42,522 nucleotides of DNA, from the NCBI GenBank assembly GCA_024400995.1, contig JAKSLU010000007.1, forward strand, positions 1 to 42,522, given 5' to 3'. This DNA is from Bacteroidaceae bacterium. GTDB lineage: Bacteria; Bacteroidota; Bacteroidia; Bacteroidales; Bacteroidaceae. A program made the translations under genes and the position numbers. The notes beneath the pieces are model-generated. The model did not search any database. It was not told the DNA's origin and saw nothing but the letters and a program-made list of their open reading frames with translations. Shown here piece by piece: positions 8,396 through 40,445 of the stretch; positions within the stretch are counted from its first letter, which is position 1; each line of letters starts with the position of its first letter.

Positions 8396-8500
8396 TATAG
8401 ACTAGTGTGCACTACATTATAGACTAGTGTGCACTACCCCCTACTCTACGCACTACTACTCCCACCACACTCCCACCACGCTCCCACCACACTCCCACCC
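8396..8500. repeat. Short direct repeats in the 349-base DUF975-mnmG gap
   Basis: A 20-base unit TATAGACTAGTGTGCACTAC occurs at 8396-8415 and 8418-8437. It is followed by an 11-base tandem unit CTCCCACCACA at 8459, 8470 and 8481, with a partial fourth copy at 8492. No ORF is seen in this stretch. The GTGCACTAC core resembles the units at 30942 and 30986. Confidence 0.7.
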
Positions 8501-8572
8501 TTCAGGGGTATCACCCCCTCCCTAATAGGGGAGGGGTGGCGGAGTGCCGCAGGCAGCTCCGACGGGGAGAGG
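8493..8572 (+). repeat. Dispersed palindromic element, copy A
   Basis: This 80-base element contains two potential hairpins: CCCCCTCCC...GGGGAGGGG and GGAGTGCCGCAGGCAGCTCC. A nearly identical copy lies at 38946-39026. Related copies lie at 23125, 23400, 38804, 40103 and 40380. Confidence 0.8.
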
Positions 8573-8655: not shown

Positions 8656-10695
8656 ATGTTGACCAAAAAGGAAAACTCAGGTGCCGCTACCCCCATCAAC
8701 GGCACCTACGATGTCATAGTCATCGGAGCCGGCCACGCCGGTTGCGAGGCAGCCCACGCGAGTGCCACCATGGGTGCCCGCACGCTCCTCATCACGATGG
8801 ACATGAACAAGATCGCGCAGATGTCCTGCAACCCCGCCGTGGGTGGCATTGCCAAGGGCCAGATCGTGCGCGAAATCGATGCCCTGGGCGGCATGATGGC
8901 ACAGGTAACGGACGCATCCACCCTACAATTTAGGATGCTCAATCGTTCCAAAGGCCCCGCCATGTGGTCGCCCCGTGCCCAGTGTGACAACCACCGCTAC
9001 TCCCGCACCTGGCGCCATATCCTGGAGAACACCGACAACCTCCAGATCTGGCAGGATGAGGTGGTGGGGATCGAAAGACCCACCCCCGACCCCTCCCAGC
9101 CAGGGGTGGGTCTTTTGGTCCACACCCTTTGGGGCGCCACCTTTGAGGCAACCTCGGTTGTAGTCACGGCAGGCACCTTCCTCAACGGTCTGATGCATGT
9201 CGGTCGCACCATGGTGCCGGGCGGTCGTGTCGCCGAACCCGCTGCCACCAAACTCACCGATTCCATCGCGAGATTTGGCATCTCCTACGACCGTATGAAG
9301 ACCGGCACGCCCGTCCGCATTGATGCCCGTTCCGTCCACTTTGAGGATATGGAGGAACAAAGGGGAGAGGTGGGGAGGTTTGCATACACAGGACCCACCC
9401 CCGACCCCTCCCATAGAGGGAGGGGAGTAGATACTCTGGTAGGGTCAGACAATGGTTGCATACAGAAGGAGGCCATGCTTATCAGACAAGAGTGCGACCC
9501 ACGTAAAGCGTCCACTCCCCTCCCTTTATGGGAGGGGTCGGGGGAGGGTCTTTGCTGGCTCTGCTCCACCAACGCCTCTACTCACGCCATCCTCCGCTCA
9601 GGCCTGGACGACTCGCCGCTCTACAACGGCCAGATACAGTCCATCGGACCACGCTACTGCCCCAGTATCGAGACAAAGCTACACACCTTCCCCGACAAGG
9701 ACACGCACCCGCTCTTCCTCGAGCCAGAGGGTGCGGACACAACGGAGATGTACCTGAACGGCTTTAGCAGCTCCCTACCCCTCGACGTACAACTCCAAGC
9801 GCTCAGGACCATTCCCTGCTTTCGCGACGTGCACTGTCTGCGCCCGGGCTATGCGATAGAGTATGACTTCTTCCCGCCCACACAGCTCCGCCACTCGCTG
9901 GAGTCAAAACTGGTGGAGGGACTCTACTTTGCCGGCCAGGTCAACGGTACGACGGGCTATGAGGAGGCCGCTGGTCAGGGCCTCATGGCGGGCATCAATG
10001 CCGCTCGCCGCTGCCAAGGCAAGGAACCCATCGTTCTACGCCGCGACGAGGCCTATATCGGCGTGCTCATCGACGATCTGGTGACCAAGGGCGTAGATGA
10101 GCCCTACCGCATGTTCACCTCCAGAGCCGAATACCGCATTCTGCTACGCCAGGACAACGCCGATGCACGCCTTACACCTATCGGCCATTCCATCGGACTA
10201 ATCTCGGAGGACACGTACCGTCTTTTCTGCGACATGCAGGAGCACATCACTCAGCTCGTCGCACAGTGTCAAAAACAGCTGGTGAAGCCGGCCGAAATCA
10301 ACGACCTACTCGAACGTCTAGGCAGCAAGCCGCTCGACCGCAGCCAGACCATCTTCACACTAACCGCACGACCCGAGCTCCATCTCATCGACATTCTCAA
10401 CGCTATTGGTGATGATACGAACACGTATTCACCCGAGGAAATCGAAGAGGCAGAGATACTAATCAAGTACGATGGCTACATCGCTCGTGAGCGCACACAA
10501 GCCGAAAAGATGCATACCCTGGAGACAGTGAAAATCCGCGGTCGCTTCGACTACCCCACCCTACTCTCCCTTTCCACAGAGGCACGACAGAAGCTCGTTG
10601 CCATCGACCCCGAAACCCTCGGACAGGCCTCCCGCATTCCGGGTGTATCCCAGAGCGACGTGGCTGTCCTCATGGTGCTGGCGGCGCAGTCGTAG
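8656..10695 (+). CDS. mnmG: tRNA uridine-5-carboxymethylaminomethyl modification enzyme MnmG, with in-frame repeat insertions
   Basis: MnmG (GidA) works with MnmE to modify the wobble uridine of several tRNAs, using FAD. The FAD-binding motif [14 protein letters not shown] is near residue 20, and [61 protein letters not shown] and [20 protein letters not shown] are all present. The ATG at 8656 gives 679 residues, about 50 more than the usual ~625. The excess lies in two places: residues about 140-154 ([13 protein letters not shown]) and about 246-299 ([11 protein letters not shown] ... [13 protein letters not shown]). Both are encoded by GC-rich palindromic repeats of the kind otherwise found between genes. 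The frame stays open and the catalytic regions are intact, so the gene is probably functional. It is followed by parS and apt. Confidence 0.95.
9074..9115 (+). repeat. In-frame palindromic insert 1 in mnmG
   Basis: Arms AAAGACCCACCCC (9074-9086) and GGGGTGGGTCTTT (9103-9115) are perfect inverted repeats around a 16-base loop. The insert encodes [11 protein letters not shown] without breaking the frame. Confidence 0.8.
9392..9552 (+). repeat. In-frame paired inverted element in mnmG
   Basis: The left arm (9392-9433) and right arm (9509-9552) are about 40-base inverted copies with only a few mismatches. Both contain the core GACCCCTCCCAT/ATGGGAGGGGTC. They enclose about 75 bases that continue the reading frame. 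The pair arrangement matches the intergenic cassettes at 23125-23465 and 40103-40445. Confidence 0.8.
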
Positions 10696-21920: not shown

Positions 21921-23146
21921 GAAAGTATATCCTCCTTCTGCTCACTCTGCTGAGCATCCAACTGTATGGTGAAGTGCTTTTCAGCACCGCCCAGGCTGAG
22001 TTCCCCTATCGTATTCCCGCCATTGCCACGACCCGCACGGGCCGTCTGGTGGCCATCAGCGACTACCGTTACTGCGGTGGCGACATAGGCTTTGGCCGTG
22101 TCGATCTGCACGTGCGCACCTCCGACGACAACGGCGCTACCTGGAGCATAGAGAAGACCCTCGTCCAGGGCGACGGCATACAGGGCTCTACCAAGTGTGG
22201 CTATGGCGATGCTGCCCTCGTGGCCGACTGCAAGAGCGACACGCTCGTCCTCATGTGCGTCACTGGCAACACCGTCTATGGTTGGGCCTCCACGACCCGC
22301 CAGAACCCCAACCGCGTGGCCCGCATCTACAGTCCCGATGGCGGTCTGACGTGGAGTGAGCCCGAGGAGGTGACGGAGCAGGTGTACAGCCTCTTTGACG
22401 AGTCGGAGCTGGGTCCGGTGCAGAGCCTCTTCTTTGGTAGTGGTCGTATCTGCCAGAGCCAAAAGGTGAAGGTGGGCAAGCACTACCGCCTCTACGCTGC
22501 CCTCTGCGCCCGTCCTGGTGGCAACCGCGTGGTGTACTCGGACGACCTGGGTCGCACCTGGCACTCTCTGGGTACCATCCACGAGAGCCCTGCTCCCAAG
22601 GGCGATGAGCCCAAGTGCGAGGAACTCCCCGACGGTAGCGTCATCCTCAGCAGTCGCTCATGGGGTGGCCGCCAGTTCAACGTGTTCCGCTACGACAGCA
22701 AGCCCTCCCGCAAGTGTCCCGCCTCTGGCACCTGGACTGGTGTGGTCAACACGCAGGACTACGACGCCAGCATCGTGGCCAAGGACAACGCCTGCAACGG
22801 CGAGATACTCCTCCTGCCTGCCCGCCGCGCCCAGGATGGCCGCAAGGTCACCCTGGCCCTGCACAGTGTGCCTCTGGGTCCTGGTCGCACCAACGTGGGC
22901 ATATACTATCGTGAGCTCCCCAAGCAGCTCTCCGATGCCAAGTCTCTGGCCCAGAACTGGACCCTCGGTCTGCAGGTCTCCCACAAGCAGAGTGCCTATA
23001 GCACCATGATCCAGCAGAAGGATGGCCGCATCGCCTTCTTCTGGGAGGAGGAGAGCACCAAGGGCGGAGGCTACGAGATGGAGTATAAGCCGCTCAGCCT
23101 ATCTGAAATCACGAATAATCAATACAGCCCCACCCTCCGAAGATAA
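21917..23146 (+). CDS. Exo-alpha-sialidase (GH33-like), secreted
   Basis: Sialidases release terminal sialic acid from host glycans. The ATG at 21917 (MRKYILLLLTLLSIQLYGEV) gives a signal peptide and 409 residues. The YRIP motif with the first catalytic arginine is at about residue 30, followed by SDYRYCGGDIGFGRVDLHVR. Three Asp-boxes are visible: SDDNGATW (~69), SPDGGLTW (~139) and SDDLGRTW (~208). DEPKCEELPDGSVILSSRSW and IAFFWEEES fit the rest of the six-bladed propeller. It lacks the short C-terminal tail of other exported proteins here. Its last codons (SPTLRR) are encoded by dispersed palindromic element C, so the native 3' end may have been replaced. Confidence 0.88.
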
Positions 23147-23192
23147 CTCCGTTACTTCGGTATCCCTCCCCGAAAGGGAGGGGAGTAGATAC
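23125..23192 (+). repeat. Dispersed palindromic element, copy C (left arm of a pair)
   Basis: It begins CAGCCCCACCCTCCGAAG and contains the stem CCCTCCCC...GGGAGGGG. It forms an inverted pair with 23400-23465 and overlaps the last 22 bases of the sialidase gene. Confidence 0.85.
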
Positions 23193-23399: not shown

Positions 23400-23465
23400 G
23401 TATCTGACCCTCCCTTTCGGGGAGGGATACCGAAGTGCCGAAGGCAGCTTCGGAGGGTGGGGCTG
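23400..23465 (-). repeat. Dispersed palindromic element, copy C' (right arm of the pair)
   Basis: This is the inverted copy of 23125-23192. It ends CTTCGGAGGGTGGGGCTG just before cysS. About 45 bases match the left arm once the variable loop is set aside. Confidence 0.85.
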
Positions 23466-23478
23466 ATGGGTCTTTGCT

Positions 23479-24978
23479 ATGCTAATCTATAACACCCTTA
23501 CCCGCCAGAAGGAGCTCTTCAAGCCCCTGCACCCTGGCCGCGTGGGCATGTACGTCTGCGGTCCCACCGTCTATGGCGACGCCCACCTGGGACATGCCCG
23601 TCCCGCCATTACCTTCGACCTCCTCTTTCGCTACCTCCAGCACCAGGGCTACAAGGTGCGCTACGTCCGCAACATCACCGACGTAGGCCACCTGGAGCAC
23701 GATGCCGATGAGGGCGAGGACAAGATTGCCAAGAAGGCCCGCCTCGAACAGCTCGAACCCATGGAGGTGGCGCAGTACTACACCCGCCGCTTCAACCAGG
23801 CCATGGATCAGCTCGGCGTGCTGCCTCCCTCTATTGAGCCCCACGCCACGGGCCACATCATCGAGCAGATAGAGCTCGTCAAGGAGATCATCGACAACGG
23901 CTATGGCTATGAGTCGAACGGCTCCGTCTATTTCGATGTAGAGAAGTACGACCAGGACCTCCGCCAGAAGGGAGGCCGCGGCTACGGCATCCTGTCCGGT
24001 CGCACGCTAGAGAACATCAAGGACGCCTCACGCGAACTCGATGGAGTAGGGGAGAAGCGCCGCCAGGCCGACTTTGCCCTCTGGAAGCACGCCCAGCCCG
24101 AGCACATCATGCGCTGGCCCTCACCCTGGGGTGACGGATTCCCCGGCTGGCACTGCGAGTGCACCGCCATGGGCCGCAAGTATCTGGGCGAGGAGTTCGA
24201 CATACACGGCGGCGGCATGGACCTCATGTTCCCCCACCACGAGTGCGAGATTGCCCAGGCAGTAGCCGCACAGGGTCACCCCATGGTGCACTACTGGATG
24301 CACAACAACATGATCACCATCGAGGGCAAGAAGATGGGCAAGTCCTACAACAACTTCATCACGCTCTCCCAGTTCTTTGACGGTAGCCACGACAAGCTGG
24401 AGCGCCCGTACGCCCCCATGGTCATCCGCTTCTTCATCCTGCAGGCCCACTATCGCAGCACCGTTGACTTCAGCAACGAGGCTCTCCAGGCCTCCGAGAA
24501 GGGTCTGGAGCGTCTGCGCGAGGCCTGGAAGGCACTCTCCCGCCTCCAGGATGGTCAGAAGGTGAAGGGTCAGCCCCAAGTGGAGCAGGCATGGGTCGAT
24601 GAACTCCAGCAGAAGTGCCAGGAAGCTATGGACGACGACCTCAACTCACCCATCGTCATCTCCCATCTCTTTGAGGCATGCAAGACTATTAACACCCTCC
24701 AGGATCGCAAGGCAAGCATCACTCCCGAAGTGGCTGACAGCCTCCTGCAGGTCTTCCGCACCTGGGCTGTCGATATTCTCGGCCTCCAGCTCGAGGCAGC
24801 CGCCGGCTCTCAGGAGCGCGAGCAGGCCTTTGGCGGTGCCGTTGATCTCCTGCTCCAGATGCGCGCCAAAGCCAAGGAAGCCAAGGACTGGGCTACCTCC
24901 GACCAGATCCGCGACCAGCTCGCCCAGCTCGGCTTTGAGGTCAAGGACACCAAGGACGGAGCTACCTGGAAGCTGTAA
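23479..24978 (+). CDS. cysS: Cysteinyl-tRNA synthetase
   Basis: CysRS charges tRNA-Cys. The 499-residue class I enzyme has the zinc-ligand and HIGH region [20 protein letters not shown] at about residue 27-46, [20 protein letters not shown], the zinc-binding block [20 protein letters not shown] with HHECEIAQ, and the KMSKS-type loop KKMGKSYNN at about residue 284. A helical anticodon-binding C-terminus follows. Length is normal. It begins 13 bases after a palindromic element and ends before a GTTAAC palindrome at 25002. Confidence 0.97.
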
Positions 24979-26536: not shown

Positions 26537-26575
26537 GGGCGGCATCCACACACACAGGGTGCCGCCCCCTTTTTT
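26537..26575 (+). terminator. GGCGGCATCC-type hairpin terminator
   Basis: GGGCGGCATCC pairs with GGGTGCCGCCC (G-U pair included) around a CA-rich loop and is followed by CCTTTTTT. It is one of five copies of this hairpin in the window and ends the 25054-26505 gene. Confidence 0.85.
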
Positions 26576-28539: not shown

Positions 28540-28571
28540 GGGCGGCATCCACACAGGGTGCCGCCTTTGTT
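28540..28571 (+). terminator. GGCGGCATCC-type hairpin terminator
   Basis: GGGCGGCATCC and GGGTGCCGCC form a stem followed by TTTGTT. It ends the 26828-28498 gene. Confidence 0.8.
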
Positions 28572-34006: not shown

Positions 34007-34048
34007 TACTAGGATTAGCAACTCCAATTGATAATTTCCGCATCGAGA

Positions 34049-34082
34049 GGGCGGCATCCACACCAGGGTGCCGCCCTTTTTT
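34049..34082 (+). terminator. GGCGGCATCC-type hairpin terminator
   Basis: GGGCGGCATCC and GGGTGCCGCCC are separated by a five-base ACACC-type loop and followed by TTTTTT. It ends the 32228-34006 gene. No clear CTAG array precedes this copy. Confidence 0.85.
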
Positions 34083-36581: not shown

Positions 36582-36661
36582 GGGCGGCATCCATCACAAG
36601 TGGGTGCCGCCTTTGTTGTATGTGGGTGCCACCTTTGTTGTATGTGGGTGCCACCCTTTTT
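36582..36661 (+). terminator. GGCGGCATCC terminator with a triplicated downstream arm
   Basis: GGGCGGCATCC is followed by three 22-base units, each starting GTGGGTGCC (36600, 36622, 36644), the last ending CCCTTTTT. The upstream arm can pair best with the first unit (GTGCCGCC); the others read GTGCCACC. Confidence 0.7.
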
Positions 36662-38803: not shown

Positions 38804-38861
38804 CAGCCCCACCCTCCGAAGCTGGCTACGCCACTTCGGTGTCCCTCCCCGAGGGGGAGGG
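38804..38861 (+). repeat. Dispersed palindromic element, copy D
   Basis: It begins CAGCCCCACCCTCCGAAGCT and contains hairpins CCGAAG...CTTCGG and CCCTCCCC...GGGGGAGGG. It is nearly identical to 40103-40159. Confidence 0.85.
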
Positions 38862-38945
38862 CTATATACACTTACATTCGGTGCAACTTACTTAAGAACT
38901 TATATACTTAAACACTAAATAACTCTATTAAACTTAACAAAGACC

Positions 38946-39026
38946 TCCCACCCTTCAGAGGTATATCCCCCTCCCTAATAGGGGAGGGGTGGCAGAGTGC
39001 CGCAAGGCAGCTCTGACGGGGAGAGG
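38946..39026 (+). repeat. Dispersed palindromic element, copy B
   Basis: It is almost the same as 8493-8572, with the second hairpin AGAGTGCCGCAAGGCAGCTCT. It ends 18 bases before the calycin-like gene start. Confidence 0.85.
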
Positions 39027-40102: not shown

Positions 40103-40170
40103 AGCCCCACCCTCCGAAGCTGGCTACGCCACTTCGGTGTCCCTCCCCGAGGGGGAGGGCGATATACCCT
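40103..40170 (+). repeat. Dispersed palindromic element, copy E (left arm of a pair)
   Basis: It begins AGCCCCACCCTCCGAAGCTG and is the inverted partner of 40380-40445. The pair encloses a terminator and a CTAG array. Confidence 0.85.
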
Positions 40171-40220
40171 TGAGGGATGGGAGAGGGTAGGGTGGCAATA
40201 AGATACATATTTATAATATA

Positions 40221-40252
40221 GGGCGGCATCCGATGTGGGTGCCGCCCTATTT
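40221..40252. terminator. GGCGGCATCC-type hairpin, possibly bidirectional
   Basis: GGGCGGCATC and GGTGCCGCCC form the stem. On the plus strand it can end the calycin-like gene (TATTTGT follows); on the minus strand it follows the 9-base array in the order seen elsewhere and can end the DUF4248 gene. Confidence 0.75.
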
Positions 40253-40379: not shown

Positions 40380-40445
40380 GTATCTAACCCTCCCCCTCGG
40401 GGAGGGACACCGAAGTGCCGTAGGCAGCTTCGGAGGGTGGGGCTG
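40380..40445 (-). repeat. Dispersed palindromic element, copy E' (right arm of the pair)
   Basis: It reads GTATCTAACCCTCCCCCTCG through CTTCGGAGGGTGGGGCTG, inverted relative to 40103-40170. The 401-base gap 40068-40468 consists almost wholly of this cassette. Confidence 0.85.

Follow-up and report, generated by a model that had tools for sequence, protein, structure and literature searches.

The gene for MnmG in a Bacteroidaceae genome contains two palindromic stretches that keep the reading frame open, which raises the question of where these stretches came from and how the gene accommodates them. The whole stretch of DNA that was analyzed (42,522 nt, contig C67 of genome G000) is referred to below as the window, and the genome that holds it comprises 1.53 Mb at 68% completeness. 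A preliminary description of this DNA had placed two palindromic extra segments within a single open frame of mnmG, and it had interpreted them as members of a spreading palindrome family that tolerates insertion into coding sequence.

Two palindromic segments in the mnmG frame

The identity of the gene was established by a profile search (TIGR00136, 739.8 bits), and a single mnmG was detected in the 68%-complete genome. Both segments lie where they had been described and the mnmG frame is open throughout, the two segments included. The relevant features of the window are as follows:

8656..10695, + strand: mnmG (gidA), 679 aa from the ATG; the ORF opens at TTG 8635 (686 aa)
9074..9115, + strand: insert 1, collapsed palindrome AAAGACCCACCCC...GGGGTGGGTCTTT, peptide of 15 letters
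9392..9430, + strand: insert 2, left REP GACCCACCCCCGACCCCTCCC-ATAG-AGGGAGGGGAGTAG, peptide of 14 letters
9431..9511, + strand: insert 2, inter-REP spacer, without stops in the mnmG frame
9512..9550, - strand: insert 2, right REP, inverted, 13 letters in the mnmG frame
8515..8535, unstranded: sister-family palindrome ACCCCTCCCCTATTAGGGAGGGG, in the gap upstream of mnmG
23163-23183 and 23407-23427, unstranded: two related palindromes, in the gap from an ORF end at 23146 to an ORF start at 23479
38842-38862 and 38968-38988, unstranded: two related palindromes, between ORFs
40140-40160 and 40387-40407, unstranded: two related palindromes, between ORFs

Insert 2 is an inverted REP-like pair, GACCCACCCCCRRCCCCTCCC-loop-GGGAGGGG, which occupies 9392-9550 (159 bp, exactly 53 codons) and stops just before Leu299 and the invariant Cys300. 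Its arm begins GACCCACCCCCGACCCCTCCCATAGAGGGAGGGG... and is followed by its inverted copy, and inverted repeats I1 (9392-9446 / 9496-9550, 82% complementary) and I4 were detected mechanically. Site 2 is palindromic in that it consists of inverted repeats, but it is a REP doublet with a spacer and not one simple palindrome. The 159-nt RNA of this insert was predicted to fold at -101.1 kcal/mol versus -56.7 for shuffled sequences (z = -11.07), and none of 200 shuffles was as stable. Insert 1 is also palindromic and resembles the outer ends of a REP doublet that may have lost its middle. In the MnmG alignment the net gain at this site is approximately 6 aa because the palindrome partly replaces the normal loop, so that the segment is an extra one only in part. 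When compared with the dispersed repeat described below, inserts 1 and 2 scored 44 and 88, with shuffle means of 17.3 and 18.5, and neither score was reached by any of 500 shuffles. The REP heads in mnmG are also canonical G-quadruplex motifs (9079-9097, 9394-9412, and 9530-9548), and the REPs of this gene account for three of the five G3+N1-7 motifs detected in the window.

The search for MnmG covered 61 genomes, including 37 (G000 among them) from the genus of the window, and a match was obtained in 57 of the 61 and in 36 of the 37 genus members. Thirty loci were aligned, with L016 truncated and L029 uninformative at site 1. Close relatives without the segments had been named as support for insertion, and segments conserved throughout the clade with no link to intergenic repeats as evidence against it. 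The palindromic segments were present in the MnmG of the window and in none of the other 29 rows, and the repeat itself was found both between and inside other genes. The usual row has a short turn (LV-ENGK-ICG) at site 1 and an 11-residue loop (ISPLRPLPQLP) at site 2. The nearest relatives, G010 and G009, which share about 73-74% of MnmG residues with the window's protein, have long, non-palindromic, and unrelated loops at both sites. This suggests that the sites were permissive before the repeat arrived or independently of it, and it also means that insertion into an already long loop and replacement of such a loop would look the same. The idea that the sister-species loops are old, decayed REPs was unsupported, as local alignment of six such loops with the repeat gave no similarity beyond that of shuffles (65 to 456 of 500 shuffles scored equally). 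In a 25-row alignment, all columns that are invariant among 24 relatives were kept in the window's protein, including Cys58 and Cys300, which we take to be the conserved cysteines of MnmG. The flanking motifs are, as had been reported, intact.

The core CCCCTCCC-N4-AGGGAGGGG was found at 10 places in the window, with 20 matches over both strands compared with 0.28 expected from shuffles, which rules out a chance origin of the core palindrome. The seven places outside mnmG are all located between ORFs of at least 150 aa, and the palindromes at these places have the core in common with the mnmG copies but not the head. The claim that the mnmG segments are inverted repeats like the intergenic ones was upheld for this core within the window, whereas the head differs and nearer kin of the mnmG copies are found on other contigs of G000. 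Sister family ACCCCTCCCCTATTAGGGAGGGG accounted for 12 of 15 matched places, the other three being two in mnmG and one on C12, and it also sits in frame within an rsmF-like gene of G000. No Rfam match was obtained in the window at gathering scores. Another hairpin, GGGCGGCATCC...GGGTGCCGCCC, has five intergenic copies (26537-26567, 28541-28565, 34048-34077, 36583-36611, and 40218-40250) and is perhaps a further REP-like or terminator family; a fixed-spacing search of the window for further hairpins, which misses these copies as their loops vary, returned nothing. Upstream of mnmG (8400-8499), direct repeats GACTAGTGTGCACTAC and a 19-mer CTCCCACCACACTCCCACC were present in two and three copies, respectively.

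A patchy family of inverted doublets

Next to the window, the search was extended to the genus, the family, and the order. The 21-mer GACCCACCCCCRRCCCCTCCC, with at most one mismatch, was present in three of 58 genomes of the genus (7 copies in G000, 22 in G010, and 37 in G022) and in none of the other 55, and a reversed control pattern gave 0. The copies of G000 are distributed as three in mnmG, one in aroA, one in an ORF of 823 aa, and a pair between two C8 ORFs, where the final codons and stop of the neighboring ORF may come from one of the copies. Exact copies were identified in 46 of 399 genomes of the family and 11 of 30 genera, with up to 37 per genome (control 0), and in three of 295 genomes, G000 among them, from an even sample of the order. 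When named genomes were scanned, at least 120 loci with the repeat were obtained. Among the 80 matches listed, 40 were assigned to Prevotella, Prevotellaceae, Bacteroidaceae, or Bacteroidales, mostly ruminant-gut MAGs by title, and the 40 from Sphingomonadales and others were left out of further analysis. One Bacteroidales MAG has a tandem REP array plus one inverted copy (L130, 6065-6379). Such a patchy distribution is as expected of a spreading element and, together with the copy numbers, it suggests that the repeat moves within genomes.

The usual unit is an inverted REP doublet, GACCC...GGGTC, mostly of 100-170 bp. Doublets made up 38 of the 55 units in the three genus genomes, and a wider set comprised 48 distinct doublets (overlapping array members counted) of 99-292 bp, 36 of them shorter than 170 bp. 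The termini read (A)AGACCC...GGGTCT(T). A target-site duplication was sought at PriA, where the flanks of the nearest relatives are too diverged to define one.

Copies inside genes and the frames they keep

Units were scored as inside an ORF if at least 40 codons lay on each side, a loose criterion by which 19 of the 55 units were counted (4/5 in G000, 3/21 in G010, and 12/29 in G022). The other 36 were outside ORFs, and the repeat is thus also intergenic in the same genomes. One unit counted as inside, L343, lies upstream of queA, and three more (L080, L333, and L345) are without family support. Within the genus, the family profile continues on both sides of the insert in MnmG (two inserts), AroA, PriA, MiaB, PurL, a GlcNAc epimerase, and HsdR, the last with a second REP-like segment further along. 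Among the named MAGs, the profile continues across the insert in GltB (two MAGs), UvrA, PriA, a Cu/Zn efflux permease, MutS2, topoisomerase III, and a sulfatase maturase. The PriA insert of the named MAGs occupies a different site from that of G010, which separates two CxxC motifs and interrupts the Zn-ribbon profile. The inserts in AroA, PriA, and MiaB were each private to one of 30 aligned rows (L291 was uninformative for MiaB). Among the 40 Bacteroidota loci listed, 34 of 69 REP hits were inside ORFs of at least 180 aa, a count that takes both doublet halves and possibly includes antisense ORFs. The hosts include several genes of DNA metabolism, namely those of PriA (two sites), UvrA (twice), MutS2, topoisomerase III, and HsdR, in a sample that is not random; the start of uvrA in G010 has a variant doublet around it.

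Two of the host proteins have further unusual stretches. The PurL of G022 (L097, P0005) has, besides the REP, the peptide ATVPEASxSGS twice, possibly a second coding repeat. The AroA of G000 (L069, P0004) has two more Pro/Gly/Ser-rich stretches, SSPLPAPPLGESS and EGSPPKGERGGGF, at positions where orthologue lengths vary, and these may be eroded or other palindromes.

The phase of the first REP was analyzed in 14 ORF-interior doublets, including L186, which has unread bases in its middle. It reads as PTPDPSLRGRG in 10 doublets, as THPQPLP in three, and in the third phase in one. The common form of the repeat reads TAG in this third phase, and its other two phases are stop-free. The rare phase is therefore the one that gives TAG, a pattern predicted by selection against stops. 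A priA doublet common to two MAG species (L132 and L170) differs at its edge by exactly three codons. The open, frame-keeping nature of these inserts suggests that their codons are translated.

Doublets inside and outside ORFs also differed in length and spacer. In G022, those inside were shorter (115-141, n = 9) than those outside (128-192, n = 16; Mann-Whitney p = 0.0024), the nine including the unit upstream of queA, which is the longest of them. Many G022 doublets outside ORFs share an AT-rich, stop-bearing spacer that most of those inside are without, and three coding doublets share the central palindrome CTTCAGAAG exactly and in gene direction. When the spacers were compared, the observed value was reached by 7 of 5000 permutations, while coding spacers were little alike (mean score 17.1 among themselves versus 16.2 to others). 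Since the permutation result is driven by the homogeneity of the intergenic spacers, it supports two spacer populations and does not prove a coding lineage. The simplest reading of the shorter, stop-poor coding doublets is a survival filter. We consider it unlikely that the family includes a sublineage of shorter doublets with stop-free spacers that dwells in genes and passes from one coding sequence to another beyond what chance survival would leave.

Origin of the segments and known counterparts

In our view the mnmG segments are very probably copies of a dispersed REP-like element that has spread in some Bacteroidaceae and survives in genes when compatible with their frame. The notion of a spreading palindrome family that tolerates coding insertion is borne out by the many copies in some genomes and by in-frame copies in several genes, from which movement can be presumed. 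Specifically, an inverted-doublet element would spread within the genomes of some Bacteroidaceae, perhaps via a RAYT-type transposase, and gene-borne copies would survive only if they are open in the frame of the gene, keep the frame in their net length, and occupy a tolerant loop. With two of three phases stop-free, a copy could often be read as the Pro/Gly-rich peptide PTPDPSLRGRG...STPLPxREGxGxGL. The mnmG gene would retain a doublet as insert 2 and a collapsed copy as insert 1, both probably translated as flexible loops and presumably near-neutral for the protein.

Other explanations start from the same observations. The unrelated long loops at the MnmG sites of G009 and G010 and at the MiaB site of five other genomes, along with slightly long PriA loops in G000 and G009, would fit ordinary loop expansion, in which GC-rich, low-complexity loops grow by slippage or recombination and merely resemble the repeat. 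However, the MnmG inserts resemble the dispersed repeat far more closely than shuffled sequences do, and copies of one 21-mer are scattered over unrelated genes and intergenic gaps. This explanation, a very improbable one for the locus, is refuted for the palindromic segments and stands for the sister-species loops. The great stability of the hairpin, whose end adjoins an invariant cysteine, might instead mean that MnmG is made without it, the segment being bypassed in translation or excised from the RNA. Such a process needs no open frame, whereas the inserts are open and frame-keeping and 5 of the 16 G022 doublets outside ORFs have no open frame among the six; we regard it as extremely improbable. 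That two insertions occur within one gene could also mean that mnmG is a decaying pseudogene in which they are tolerated because the gene is dead. This is hardly credible for a gene that has an open frame, has kept the invariant columns, and was found in a single copy, and aroA, priA, and purL carry inserts of this kind as well.

The last step of the preferred explanation, the spread of a REP-like element, would be sharpened by a compatible account in which a RAYT transposase moves the family as a REPIN population, as is the case in Pseudomonas, with the L103/L108 subgroup as the candidate. We hold this account tentatively, as a serious possibility that falls short of probable. On the one hand, the units are inverted REP doublets, and the RAYT gene L108 of G009 (2370-2909) lies among four sister-repeat copies ending at 1623, 3030, 3574, and 4411, which raises the odds of the account. 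G009 has no exact repeat, and its sister repeat shares the head AGACCCTC and the stem CTCCCT/AGGG; the four copies around the RAYT gene (L108, 1560-4411) read AGACCCTCTAAATCTCCCT..AGGG. The sister motif of L108, AGACCCTCTAAATCTCCCTTAAAGGGCG, had 0 hits in 427,865 bp of other loci. In G010, RAYT L103 is located approximately 0.9 kb from a variant doublet, with another gene between. Its nearest RAYTs (50-53% identity) are those of G514, G428, G009, and G579, of which G514, G428, and G579 are repeat-rich, and the other RAYTs of G010 are 37-41% identical to it. Y1_Tnp was matched in 14 of 25 genus genomes searched and in 27 of 41 in all.

On the other hand, the sister motif was found in only 2 of 29 RAYT loci, and at none of the eight RAYT loci of G009, G010, and G022 is the exact repeat an immediate neighbor. 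No RAYT was found in the at least 120 repeat loci of the named-genome scan. Five of 12 repeat-rich genomes (85-99% complete) were without a Y1_Tnp match, three repeat-rich genomes (G682, G696, and the single-contig G567) had partial matches only, in frames of 281-452 aa, and the repeat was present in none of the 12 Y1_Tnp loci of repeat-rich genomes. The L103/L108 subgroup is thus an unproven candidate mover. A further RAYT of G010 (L101, 2341-2862) has unrelated repeats of its own on its flanks, CTGGCTGGAAGCCAG and TGAGTAACCCGGGACGAAGTCTCGGG, which points to a different REP system in the same genome.

No published account of this family, or of coding REPs in Prevotella/Bacteroidaceae, was found in a search that covered few subscription journals and no supplements. 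As far as we found, the novelty lies in the repeat family itself, its bacterial group, the high proportion of copies located in ORFs, and the core genes affected. Annotators of Bacteroidaceae proteins should note that a repeat may be the source of Pro/Gly-rich segments such as PTPDPSLRGRG or STPLPREGxGVGL. The translation and neutrality of the inserts, the occurrence of DNA-metabolism genes among the hosts, and the enzyme that moves the doublets can all be tested with this family.

The kind of insertion is already known, from in-frame palindromes in Rickettsia and, according to the available text of PMC3733652, from intragenic REP dimers elsewhere. In that text, GTAG and CGTC REPs and REP dimers are described inside ORFs of several phyla, many of them in DNA replication and repair genes; CGTC, a class named for Bacteroidetes, reportedly has no dedicated transposase, and priA does not occur. 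The Bacteroidaceae repeat is similar in having dimers inside ORFs, but neither GTAG nor CGTC is clearly present at the end of its stem. After the stem, many copies have GGGGAGTAGA and others GGGGAGAGGT or GGGGAGTATA, unlike the forms described in the available portion of PMC3733652. As in the REPINs associated with RAYTs, two inverted REPs fold into one hairpin (PMC3116915, as far as available). In contrast, the RAYT link is tentative in the Bacteroidaceae repeat, and only 14 of 1,067 of the most abundant 16-mers overlap genes in P. fluorescens SBW25, according to the same portion of that paper, compared with 19/55 units in ORFs by our loose criterion. The Rickettsia palindromic elements (RPEs; Ogata et al. 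2000/2002) are, in the available text of PMC10969869, palindromes of about 150 bp that lie in frame in unrelated genes and also outside genes and are read as an extra peptide. The comparison with them, made in the preliminary description, is apt as a way of working: both insert in frame in several unrelated genes and have intergenic copies in the same genome, a likeness of mode for which no homology is claimed, as the phylum is another and the Bacteroidaceae unit is a REP doublet with GC-rich heads. The frequency of in-frame RPE insertion was called unusually high in the same text, and the same was thought conceivable in other prokaryotes (PMC10969869). In-frame palindrome insertion of this kind occurs in Bacteroidaceae, in core genes and through a family that is present in many sequenced genomes.
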